A DNA stretch of 64,000 nt. It comes from Candidatus Gastranaerophilales bacterium (GTDB lineage: Bacteria > Cyanobacteriota > Vampirovibrionia > Gastranaerophilales > Gastranaerophilaceae). How positions within the stretch are numbered: position 1 is the first letter of the stretch; the number at the start of each line of letters is the position of its first letter. The stretch is taken from NCBI GenBank assembly GCA_944324165.1, contig CALUVG010000003.1, forward strand, positions 1 through 64,000. The letters run 5' to 3'. Below the pieces are notes generated by a model that was not told where the DNA came from, searched no databases, and saw only the letters and a program-made list of their open reading frames with translations. Both the position numbers and the translations under genes were made by a program. Positions 5,595 to 26,333 of the stretch are shown piece after piece.

Positions 5595-5906
5595 TTATAA
5601 ATTAATTGTCATTAAATACAAAGCTTTTAATTTTTCTCCGTTAAGCGTCGCTATCTTATTAAGAATTGCCAGTTTCAATTCTTCATCACTGCCGTAGCAG
5701 TCATTTATAAACAATTCCTGAACTTTAATACCAAAGGCATCCGCAATTTTTTCAAGATTTTCAGCGGTAGGAAAACTTTCACCGTTTTCAATGCGAACAA
5801 CCTGACGTGGGTTTATATCAATAAGCTCTGAAAAATATTCCTGAGAATATTTTCTTTGTTTTCTTAAATCCCTTATTTTTGCACCTAGGAGTTTTTTAAT
5901 ATTCAT
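5595..5906 (-). CDS. XRE-family HTH regulator, divergent from a prepilin gene (module 1)
   Basis: 103 residues from the ATG at 5906, which has a perfect AGGAGGT 4 bases upstream; the longer frame to 5948 is not supported. The Cro/CI helix-turn-helix spans about 10-65 (IRDLRKQRKYSQEYFSELI, then the recognition-helix region INPRQVVRIENGESFPT). A short Leu/Lys-rich C-terminal extension may dimerise. It is divergent from the prepilin-like gene at 6066, and the 159-bp gap holds direct and inverted repeats. It is inferred to repress or activate the prepilin gene and itself. Confidence 0.85.
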   Translation of the reverse strand: MNIKKLLGAKIRDLRKQRKYSQEYFSELIDINPRQVVRIENGESFPTAENLEKIADAFGIKVQELFINDCYGSDEELKLAILNKIATLNGEKLKALYLMTINL

Positions 5907-5974
5907 CGTTACCTCCTGATAAATTATAGTGAGATATCTGCGAAACATTAAGGCAATTATTTAGCCTAAAACAT

Positions 5975-6065: not shown

Positions 6066-6785
6066 ATGTATTCTAAAAATAACGCTTTTACACTCGCTGA
6101 AGTATTGATTACCCTTGCAATAATTGGTATTGTGGCTGCACTAACATTGCACAATTTAGTCTACTCTTATAAAAAAAGGATAATTGAAACCAGATTACAA
6201 AAAACATATTCACTGCTCAATCAAGCTGTTACAATGTCAATAATTGATAATGGTGAAACTAAAGAATGGAGCGGAAGTTCTGATACCTCGGACAATATGG
6301 AAATATGGTTTAAAAAATATTTTGGTAAATACTTAAAGTATAATAAAATTACTTCTTCTCCGAGCACTACGGATACAGAAGGTAATACTTTACATAATGG
6401 CATATATGTATATCTAAATGATGGCAGTGTACTTTCTATTAAAAATTCTAATAACAATAATAACGGTATTGCCCGCGATTGGCACTACTTTATAGATGGA
6501 AAAAAACTCAATAGCAAAACAATATTAGATGTAGAAAATAATTATGAAGCAACTCGTAGCGGATATATATCCGGCAGAGATTTATTTTCTTTCTATTTTG
6601 ATACTGATAAAAGCAGATTTATGCCATATGGATATCACCAATTAACAGGTGATGAGAATGATATACGGGATGTATTTATGAACAAACCGGTGTTTGGCTG
6701 CAGTCAATCCGGAGCATATATGTGTTCTGCATTAATTATGTATGACGGCTGGAAAATAAAGGATGATTATCCGGTTAAACTGTAA
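6066..6785 (+). CDS. Type IV pilin-like protein (prepilin, module 1)
   Basis: 239 residues with a class III signal: a short basic leader (MYSKNNA) then FTLAEVLITLAIIGIVAAL, with Ala at -1, Phe at +1 and Glu at +5 of the presumed prepilin peptidase site. The hydrophobic helix is followed by a soluble domain with two cysteines near the C-terminus (FGCSQSG, YMCSAL) that may form a disulfide. It ends with a W-K-I-K-D-D-Y-P-V-K-L motif close to the end of the prepilin at 19960-20595 (WEFKDDYPYTLK). An extracellular or inner-membrane pseudopilus role is likely. GGAGG is 4-8 bases before the ATG. Confidence 0.85.
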   Translation: MYSKNNAFTLAEVLITLAIIGIVAALTLHNLVYSYKKRIIETRLQKTYSLLNQAVTMSIIDNGETKEWSGSSDTSDNMEIWFKKYFGKYLKYNKITSSPSTTDTEGNTLHNGIYVYLNDGSVLSIKNSNNNNNGIARDWHYFIDGKKLNSKTILDVENNYEATRSGYISGRDLFSFYFDTDKSRFMPYGYHQLTGDENDIRDVFMNKPVFGCSQSGAYMCSALIMYDGWKIKDDYPVKL

Positions 6786-19959: not shown

Positions 19960-20595
19960 CTATTTTAATGTATACGGATAATCGTCTTTAAATTCCCAAT
20001 TATCACGCTGTAAAAGACTTGTACAATATGCATAATTTTCTTTACATTTTTGTACACATTCTTCTCTTGTATATTTATCACATGAATATCCGGCATTTAC
20101 ATAATTTTTAGATGTTAAACATATATTGAAATAAAATAGATCCACCCCACCCTGTTTAGGTCCCTTGTCACCATTGACATCAACTGTCATATCAACACAA
20201 TCCCCATTCCACATCTCTACTCTTGTCCCATTTACAAGTTTAAAAGTACCGTTATCCTTAATTGATTCACTTGTATATTTTAAATAAGGGGCTATATATG
20301 TTTTAAAAAATTCATAATTATAAGAGTGTGCAGCACTATTATCTAAATTACCTTCTTCATCATAATTTTCTGAGAGAGCATGTTTACTCCAGCCGCTTTT
20401 TGGACCGTGATCAATTTCGGATAACTGTATAGCCTGAGACATAATACTGTAATACTCTTTTAATCTTGTTCCATAGACTTTCTTTTTATAGTTTTGCATA
20501 AGAGTAGGTATTGTCAGTGCTGCAACAACACCGATTATTGCCAGCGTTATCAAAACTTCTGCGAGCGTAAAGGCTTTTGTCATTTTTCTTCTCAT
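19960..20595 (-). CDS. Type IV pilin-like protein (prepilin, module 2)
   Basis: 211 residues. The class III leader MRRKMTKA is followed by FTLAEVLITLAIIGVVAAL with Glu at +5. The soluble part contains the D-V-N-G-D-K-G-P-K ... D-L-F-Y-F signature shared with the prepilins at 25233 and 37567 and with 29810, plus at least seven cysteines in the last 60 residues (GYSCDKYTREECVQKCKENY). It is probably an exported, disulfide-stabilised minor pilin or pseudopilin. AAAGGAG precedes the ATG. It is divergent from an XRE regulator. Confidence 0.85.
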   Translation of the reverse strand: MRRKMTKAFTLAEVLITLAIIGVVAALTIPTLMQNYKKKVYGTRLKEYYSIMSQAIQLSEIDHGPKSGWSKHALSENYDEEGNLDNSAAHSYNYEFFKTYIAPYLKYTSESIKDNGTFKLVNGTRVEMWNGDCVDMTVDVNGDKGPKQGGVDLFYFNICLTSKNYVNAGYSCDKYTREECVQKCKENYAYCTSLLQRDNWEFKDDYPYTLK

Positions 20596-20610
20596 ACGTC
20601 TTCTCCTTTA

Positions 20611-20667
20611 TGATTTATAGATTAATGCTTATGATTTATCATTCATTTATAATGATTTATAAATCAT
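20611..20667. promoter_or_regulatory. Phased half-sites plus 16-bp palindrome (operator) between prepilin and XRE genes
   Basis: ATGATTTAT starts at 20610, 20631 and 20652, an exact 21-bp period (two helical turns). The third copy is the left arm of a perfect 16-bp palindrome ATGATTTATAAATCAT (20652-20667). This lies between the divergent prepilin (module 2) and XRE genes and is the clearest operator in the window. Confidence 0.7.
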
Positions 20668-20722
20668 ATTTTATATTTTATACATCCTAATATAACTTTG
20701 TCAAGCAAGGTAAACTAATAAT

Positions 20723-20959
20723 ATGGAACGTGAGACTATTCTTAAAATATTTGCTTATAATTTACGCAAAATAAGACGCGATAGAGATTTTACTCAGGAG
20801 TATCTGGCAGAAAAAGCTGATATAACACAAGAATATTTAGCCAGAATAGAAAAAGGTAAATTCTCGCCATCGCTTGTTGTAATCGTTAATCTCGCTTTAG
20901 CTCTTGATGTCTCTATTGATAAACTTATACCGCTTGATGAATTGAATAAAAAAGATTAA
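20723..20959 (+). CDS. XRE-family HTH regulator (module 2)
   Basis: 78 residues that are almost entirely a Cro/CI-type helix-turn-helix: LRKIRRDRDFTQEYLAEKA, then ITQEYLARIEKGKFSPSLVV, quoted as two parts. It presumably acts as a dimer. No strong Shine-Dalgarno is present. It is divergent from the prepilin at 19960 and lies next to a phased 21-bp operator array, so it likely controls both itself and that prepilin. Its stop overlaps the recO stop by 4 bases. Confidence 0.88.
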   Translation: MERETILKIFAYNLRKIRRDRDFTQEYLAEKADITQEYLARIEKGKFSPSLVVIVNLALALDVSIDKLIPLDELNKKD

Positions 20960-25232: not shown

Positions 25233-26000
25233 TTACTTACTGCATTTATGTTTGCCATCCCAGCTTAAATCGTCACAGTGCCAGTAGTCCATGTTTTCAT
25301 TCTCAATAACCCATGCGGCACAGCCCCAGCCATAGCCCGTATCGGATAAACAGCTGTTTTCAAAATTATAACCGGTTGATGTATAATTCCTTGCACCTAC
25401 AGGTACTACAGTTCCACTCTTAGTTAGATTAAATATAAATAAATCCTTGCCATAAGTATTAGGTTTTGATGATCCGTTTATATCGACAATGTATTCTCCG
25501 CAGATATTAGTTAAATTACCTGTACCCAGACTTATGCTGCATGCTCCCTGAGCAGTCATACTTGCAAAAATACCTACTATCATTCCGTCTGCAAGCTGCA
25601 TGCCTGCTCTACGGGATCCTTCTCCGCCATTAAATACATGAGAAGAACCGGTATTTATTAGATCTCCATTACGTTGATATAATTCATCTGCTGTGTGACA
25701 TTTGCTATTACCGTCATTGCAATATTTTGCATGTTTAATATAAGGAAAAATCGTCGTAAGCATAACTTCAGGATGCTCACTGGATATGCCCCACATATCC
25801 GGTGTTCCATGTTCAATAATCGCCATTTGTACAGCCTGCGTTATAGTTGCATAGAATTTTTTAAGTGCAGTTACTCTCGCTTTTTCCTGATATTTTTGCA
25901 CCAGCGAAGGTATAGTTATGGCTGCAACAATCCCGATTATTGCAAGCGTTATCAACACTTCCGCAAGAGTGAATGCAAAATTCTTATTATTTTTAATCAT
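25233..26000 (-). CDS. Type IV pilin-like protein (prepilin, module 3)
   Basis: 255 residues. The leader MIKNNKNFA is followed by FTLAEVLITLAIIGIVAAI with Glu at +5. The soluble domain has Y-I-V-D-I-N-G-S-S-K-P-N-T-Y-G-K-D-L-F-I-F, the 'DINGxxxPNxxGKDxF' signature of this protein set, and several cysteine pairs toward the C-terminus (SCLSDTGYGWGCA, WHCDD, KHKCSK). GAGG precedes the ATG. It is divergent from a small HTH gene at 26112, and its stop abuts that of the HAD gene. Confidence 0.85.
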   Translation of the reverse strand: MIKNNKNFAFTLAEVLITLAIIGIVAAITIPSLVQKYQEKARVTALKKFYATITQAVQMAIIEHGTPDMWGISSEHPEVMLTTIFPYIKHAKYCNDGNSKCHTADELYQRNGDLINTGSSHVFNGGEGSRRAGMQLADGMIVGIFASMTAQGACSISLGTGNLTNICGEYIVDINGSSKPNTYGKDLFIFNLTKSGTVVPVGARNYTSTGYNFENSCLSDTGYGWGCAAWVIENENMDYWHCDDLSWDGKHKCSK

Positions 26001-26111: not shown

Positions 26112-26333
26112 ATGCAGGCAAGAAACAAAATTAAATCGTTAGCAGCACTAAAATGCGTTACTCTCACTAAACTGGCAGATATGATGGCACAGGCAACAGG
26201 TAAACCTTATACTTTCAAAAGTCTTGTCGGGAAAATGCAAAGAGGAACTATTTCTCTTGACGAAGCATATTTAATAGCTGATCTTCTGGGGTACCGTTTG
26301 GAATTTATTGACAAAAATACAAATCTTTCTTGA
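26112..26333 (+). CDS. Small HTH DNA-binding protein (module 3)
   Basis: 73 residues from the ATG at 26112; a longer open frame reaches upstream but its first part overlaps the prepilin gene antisense and is not protein-like. The sequence L-T-K-L-A-D-M-M-A-Q-A-T-G-K-P-Y-T ... LIADLLGYRLEFIDK matches the small XRE-like HTH proteins often found in Firmicutes and phages. It is divergent from the prepilin at 25233, completing a third regulator/prepilin pair. Confidence 0.75.
   Translation: MQARNKIKSLAALKCVTLTKLADMMAQATGKPYTFKSLVGKMQRGTISLDEAYLIADLLGYRLEFIDKNTNLS

Follow-up and report, generated by a model that had tools for sequence, protein, structure and literature searches.

The phased repeats in the 127-bp region between a prepilin gene and the divergent gene for a 78-aa XRE protein are, we are fairly confident, the operator array of that protein, and the locus would be one of about 45 privately addressed prepilin modules in which the prepilin has been exchanged over evolution. 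The window, i.e. the whole stretch of DNA that was analysed, is contig C3, bases 1-64000, from a draft genome of 2.05 Mb (G000 in the following); the genomes with which it was compared are draft assemblies as well. The locus contains the following features:

19960-20595, minus strand: prepilin, 211 aa (N_methyl and DUF6613, from domain matches)
20602-20609, minus strand: prepilin Shine-Dalgarno AAAGGAGA (from the sequence and a class-wide count)
20610-20625: operator site S1, ATGATTTATAGATTAA, centre -105.5 from the XRE ATG, adjoining the prepilin Shine-Dalgarno; matrix score 11.2
20631-20646: operator site S2, ATGATTTATCATTCAT, centre -84.5 from the XRE ATG; matrix score 13.7
20652-20667: operator site S3, the palindrome ATGATTTATAAATCAT, centre -63.5 (conserved position in relatives, -62 to -64); matrix score 21.6
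20673-20688: in-register position S4, ATATTTTATACATCCT, centre -42.5, overlapping the prepilin -10; matrix score -0.3
20677-20682, minus strand: prepilin promoter -10 TATAAA, with a 16-bp spacer
20699-20704, minus strand: prepilin promoter -35 TTGACA (present in this orientation in 32 of 45 modules, against 5.7% of shuffles)
20711-20716, plus strand: putative XRE -10 TAAACT, 6 nt before the ATG
20723-20959, plus strand: XRE (HTH_3) regulator, 78 aa (from its HTH_3 domain and fold model)

Within the intergenic region, ATGATTTAT recurs on the plus strand at 20610, 20631 and 20652, that is at 21-bp steps, and the third copy forms the left arm of a perfect 16-bp palindrome at 20652-20667, the other arm of which lies at 20659-20667. 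An earlier note on this DNA had reported the three copies and the completed palindrome, and its coordinates are confirmed. When the 127-bp region was shuffled 20,000 times with its dinucleotides preserved, no shuffle contained any 9-mer in three evenly spaced copies; a perfect 16-bp palindrome arose in 2% of them, and the significant part of the array is therefore its phasing. Both the mismatch-free palindrome and the phased double half-site are found at this locus only in the whole genome. The earlier note had described half-sites plus a full site. The full site stands, but the supposed half-sites at 20610 and 20631 are imperfect full sites, scoring 11.2 and 13.7 against 21.6 for the palindrome with a symmetric matrix built from the 42 homologous loci outside the window (consensus, nTGAYTTATAARTCAn). 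Other near-palindromes (C15:52118, C1:60808, C16:7019, and C4:50636) belong to coding or unrelated sequence and have no phased partner, and a global regulon was discarded because the phased pattern occurs at the array locus only in this genome.

The earlier note would have been refuted by repeats that differ between related strains, but the repeats are conserved. A search of 383 genomes of the family recovered XRE homologues with 42-77% identity in 61 genomes, and 36 of 42 homologous Gastranaerophilales loci (window excluded) contain at least two TGAYTTATAARTCA sites 20-21 bp apart, in fixed positions relative to the XRE start codon (about -63 and -42). A strictly fixed spacing of 21 bp was ruled out by one genus with 20 bp. 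The promoter-proximal site that the relatives conserve is degenerate in the window (S4, 20673-20688); judged by sequence, the -42 site has decayed here, and two extra upstream sites are present.

The operator sequence also corresponds to the recognition helix of the regulator. A sister XRE clade (class B) carries PQHLYR (QHLYR) in this helix where class A has PEYLAR (EYLAR). The class A operator core lies upstream of 41 of the 51 class A genes and of none of the 15 class B genes. For the class B core, ACATATATGT, the counts are 11 of 15 in its own class and 1 of 51 in class A. Furthermore, the array travels with the XRE gene to differing chromosomal addresses, beside recO, xseA, or mutS2. Taken together, its conservation, the clade-matched operators, the joint movement with the XRE gene, and its uniqueness in the genome indicate that the adjacent 78-aa XRE protein is very probably the binder of the array, and the conservation and the match between operator and recognition helix lend good support to the earlier proposal that this protein occupies sites on a single DNA face. 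The privacy of the address is not absolute, since in a relative (locus L148; G024 contig 66, positions 1501-1528) tandem ATAAATCA sites 20 bp apart separate a prepilin from an XRE whose recognition helix is different (MRTISIVE). This would be the same kind of operator with another regulator, reflecting either convergence or cross-talk.

The 78-aa protein matches the HTH_3 domain (PF01381) with 55.3 bits (cut-off, 23), and its structure model (pLDDT 93.6) displays the Cro/C1 helical fold. The nearest solved folds are those of C.AhdI, C.BclI, and C.Esp1396I, with TM-scores of up to 0.83 (query) and 0.93 (target) for C.AhdI, and 2cro is among the matches as well. The HTH fold accounts for all 78 residues, and no C-terminal oligomerisation, peptidase, or cleavage domain was found in the protein. 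The helix equivalent to that bearing SQE in controller proteins contains TQE; this motif is common in the family and constitutes weak evidence. The XRE gene is monocistronic, with recO convergent at -4 bp and the prepilin divergent. Linked restriction endonuclease or methyltransferase genes were not found at the locus, where the neighbours are the prepilin, groES/groEL, recO, and a pilT-like ATPase gene. A toxin-antitoxin module with XRE as the antitoxin was rejected because there is no toxin partner gene and the XRE gene is monocistronic, and a prophage was rejected because the partner genes are absent.

The 211-aa prepilin, near which the pilT-like ATPase gene is located, contains an N-terminal methylation/cleavage motif (PF07963, 25.0 bits; cut-off, 21.2) and DUF6613 (37.9 bits; cut-off, 24.3). 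Its promoter predicts a transcription start near 20670, which would place S3 at about +3 to +18 and S1 and S2 in the prepilin leader beside the Shine-Dalgarno; an alternative -10, TAAAAT, ends at 20675 and has an 18-bp spacer. Prepilins are preceded by a Shine-Dalgarno in 36 of 45 modules of G000 and in 34 of 38 modules of G015, a genome from another genus, whereas a motif resembling a Shine-Dalgarno precedes 1 of 27 and 2 of 31 short XREs, respectively. The sequence before the ATG of the 78-aa XRE contains none. Given that TAAACT ends 6 nt before this ATG and that the Shine-Dalgarno is missing class-wide in short XREs, leaderless translation of the XRE transcript is the natural inference. If the transcript starts at the ATG, the conserved proximal site would be centred at -42 (-42.5 for S4, with the XRE start site predicted in this way), which is the class-II activator position used by lambda CI.

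In the mechanism that we infer, XRE dimers would bind, perhaps cooperatively, to TGAYTTATAARTCA palindromes 21 bp or two helical turns apart, allowing several dimers to line up on one DNA face. Bound dimers would cover the divergent prepilin start (TTGACA-16-TATAAA, near 20670) and repress the prepilin. A dimer in the -42 register would abut the -35 region of the XRE gene's own, probably leaderless promoter and could activate it in the manner of lambda CI and controller proteins, so that XRE would tune, and perhaps activate, its own gene. The site best placed to block the prepilin -10 and to activate the XRE promoter (S4) is degenerate in the window. With an operator sequence of its own in every module, each prepilin would be addressed separately and dozens of switches would be kept apart.

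The earlier note had the XRE protein controlling the prepilin gene. At the window locus this is likely, as the array covers the start of the TTGACA-16-TATAAA promoter, but it does not extend to many relatives, in which the same XRE and array occur without a prepilin or with a different one. A prepilin is the divergent neighbour of the pair in the window's genus, G024, and several genomes of g7 and g10; in g14, g11, and g2, this place is taken by other, non-pilin secreted proteins. In g54, the pair has no close divergent gene and TTGACA is missing too. The array is kept throughout a genus in which thrS is the next leftward gene (~170-250 bp) and TTGACA is absent. Because the array persists in these relatives, autoregulation appears to be its constant, conserved role, to which control of any divergent gene would be added. 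The thrS genus and the non-pilin neighbours would also suit an array that serves autoregulation of the XRE gene alone, with the divergent prepilin as an accidental neighbour; we consider this unlikely, for the divergent XRE-prepilin pairing is far above chance, in one orientation and in two genera, and the array reaches into the start region of a prepilin promoter that is close to consensus.

Binding by another factor, such as a global regulator or a nucleoid protein, would make the proximity of XRE incidental. This reading can draw on the ~47 or more XRE proteins in the genome and on the similar tandem site beside a different XRE in G024, and yet it is very improbable in view of an array that moves with the XRE gene among the recO, xseA, and mutS2 addresses, is unique in the genome, and changes with the XRE clade. 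We give hardly any credence to repeats acting as RNA, in which case a palindrome hairpin in the prepilin 5' leader would control translation. S1-S3 do fall within the predicted leader and S1 adjoins the Shine-Dalgarno, but the sites are kept where the leftward promoter or the prepilin is absent, and neither direct repeats phased at 20-21 bp nor their match to the XRE recognition helix has an RNA rationale.

The preferred reading, an XRE operator array within a prepilin module, extends well beyond this locus, which the earlier note had treated singly, missing that it is one of about 45 of its kind. A single XRE query over the whole 2.05-Mb genome yielded 47 XRE genes, of which 32 are divergent from a prepilin within 450 bp (~0.5 expected) and none neighbours a prepilin in any other orientation; two thirds of the detected XRE regulators of G000 are paired one-to-one with prepilins. 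The whole genome contains 90 prepilin N-terminal motifs, and a profile search of the fetched G000 DNA produced 45 divergent XRE-prepilin modules. Similarly, 43 of the 66 HTH_3 genes of G015 are divergent from 43 distinct prepilins, with no HTH_3-prepilin neighbours in another orientation among the 66. The numbers of XREs and prepilins are correlated over 36 genomes of the family (Spearman coefficient 0.74, uncorrected for relatedness). The pairing is not universal in the order, since the best single XRE matches from a sample of 29 relatives, outside the expanded genomes, are mostly without a prepilin; order-level relatives mostly lack the expansion. Three genomes (G017, G039, and G008) have 83-111 prepilin motifs but few XRE matches (9, 5, and 17, respectively), and prepilin expansion thus exists without XRE expansion in some lineages. 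The window itself includes two further modules:

5595-5948, minus strand: second XRE of the window (of the long type), with the prepilin at 6066 as its divergent neighbour
6066-6785, plus strand: prepilin of the second module, partner of the XRE at 5595-5948
25233-26000, minus strand: prepilin of the third module; its divergent partner is a small HTH-like protein from a different family
26112-26333, plus strand: HTH-like protein, 73 aa, with four helices and no confident family match

Each module's intergenic region has its own motif, for example TTATTTGTCTAATACAATATATATATTGTATTAGACAAATAA (C11), TATCCCTGTATGGACATAATTATGTCCATACAGGGATA (C2), and AGTCCTATCGTGTTCGCGATAGGACT (C12). Palindromes are individually significant in 16 of 45 modules in G000 and 14 of 38 in G015, mainly with short XREs; long XREs are mostly without one. 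Among 37 direct-repeat lags, 21 bp ranks first both in the 45 modules of G000 and in the 38 of G015, and TTGACA is oriented toward the prepilin in 32 and 18 of these regions, respectively, compared with ~6% and 3% of shuffles.

Co-inheritance was assessed by pairing the XREs of G000 and G015 as reciprocal best matches, which gave 17 pairs with 44-81% identity. The partner's operator region is the best match out of 38 in 13 of these pairs (0.45 by chance), and the observed mean operator match was reached in 0 of 20,000 permutations with the gene-adjacent ends left out. The partner's prepilin body, in contrast, is the best match in a single pair, with a mean rank of 16.9 against 19.5 by chance. 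One-to-one co-inheritance of XRE and prepilin, which had been expected, fails on this last count: the sequences argue that regulator and operator are inherited together and that the prepilin behind them is exchanged. In G001, a relative from the same genus, the recO/pilT side is collinear and XRE and array are kept; the prepilin at this place is a different 330-aa protein, alike over the first 49 residues only, and groES/groEL do not lie beyond it. The first 25 codons of the mature prepilins share a mean nucleotide identity of 71% (up to 95%), and the conserved N-terminus is a plausible recombination joint.

The closest parallels are the controller (C) proteins (C.AhdI, C.BclI, C.Esp1396I, C.PvuII, and C.Csp231I), which, like the protein described here, are small stand-alone XRE dimers and provide its nearest solved folds. 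Two palindromic operators in tandem precede the gene of each C protein, compared with phased sites at -105, -84, and -63 here (-63 and -42 in relatives). C.Csp231I activates from its tandem operator via SQE contacting sigma-70 (PMC4824078), PvuII control has been reported to be a bistable hysteretic switch (PMC3695507), and OR overlaps the own -35 in these systems (PMC4824078, PMC3695507), whereas here the proximal site would abut the predicted XRE -35 region. C proteins come with restriction and methyltransferase genes; here, there are none and the partner is a divergent prepilin. Unlike C systems, the modules number dozens in a genome, and every one has an operator of its own. The repressor regions of phages lambda (CI) and 434 resemble the locus in their phased operators between divergent promoters and a leaderless-looking repressor gene. 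In lambda PRM, a dimer is positioned at about -42 from the repressor start, a place that corresponds to the proximal register of the array. The phage repressors possess a C-terminal oligomerisation or cleavage domain, which the 78-aa XRE lacks, and the present locus has no prophage context and a prepilin as the controlled gene.

Silent pilin cassettes of Neisseria and phase-variable capsule loci are known repertoires of pilins and surface antigens. They share with the modules described here the many alternative surface-subunit genes per genome and the signs of exchange of variable parts, but they rely on one expression site or on invertible promoters, whereas each gene here has its own promoter and its own transcriptional regulator. 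A possible, still tentative extension is a set of ~45-60 separately addressed pilin slots, each with a regulator and a private phased operator forming a stable, bistable on/off switch similar to those of CI and C proteins; exchange of the pilin body by recombination at the conserved N-terminus could then create many pilin combinations per population.

Concerning pilins or XRE regulators, the Gastranaerophilales/Melainabacteria literature yielded mention of type IV pilus genes only (PMC5877343). Divergent XRE repressors with phased operators are commonplace. In the open-licence literature, we found no description of a genome with two thirds of its detected XREs devoted one-to-one to prepilins and with regulator-operator co-inheritance behind which the prepilin changes, although other papers may contain one. 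The modules offer a testable mechanism of surface variation for an uncultured gut lineage, and the dozens of XRE-operator pairs form a natural panel for studying what makes a recognition helix specific for its DNA and what keeps paralogous regulators from interfering with one another.

Small proteins of other kinds also accompany prepilins. About 12 further prepilins stand beside a member of a second family (68-82 aa), divergent in most cases; examples are the third module of the window (25233-26000/26112-26333) and, in G000, C4:68961, C30:12762, C9:10056, C9:8471, C7:75367, C26:19312, C5:42361, C5:10583, C11:59989, C1:152636, and C1:125854. By sequence, this family is weakly HTH-like (best HTH_26, E=0.002; DUF6471, E=4e-4); AlphaFold predicts four confident helices, and the PDB fold matches to HipB, HigA, and ComR are not significant. 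It is probably a second regulator family in the same use. Two prepilins not paired with an XRE (G000 C11:14087 and C6:56078) have a divergent small protein that is AbrB-like by eye, with no Pfam match, perhaps a third kind of dedicated regulator. At L113 and L075 (also L103 and L104), the frames of XRE-adjacent prepilins pass, directly behind the FTLAE motif, into sequence made of dispersed repeats (similar to CHSEHLLCHPELVSGS and others of this kind), as though a repeat element had been inserted at the conserved prepilin N-terminus. Finally, a second class of prepilins in G000 is longer (~300-450 aa) and has no divergent regulator (e.g. C5:3850, C11:23770, C48:4925, C9:76153, C10:67328, and C17:47333), and the frames upstream of these often share a MA(G/A)NLA..EEFTVGWGF(Y/H)PNN-like repeat.
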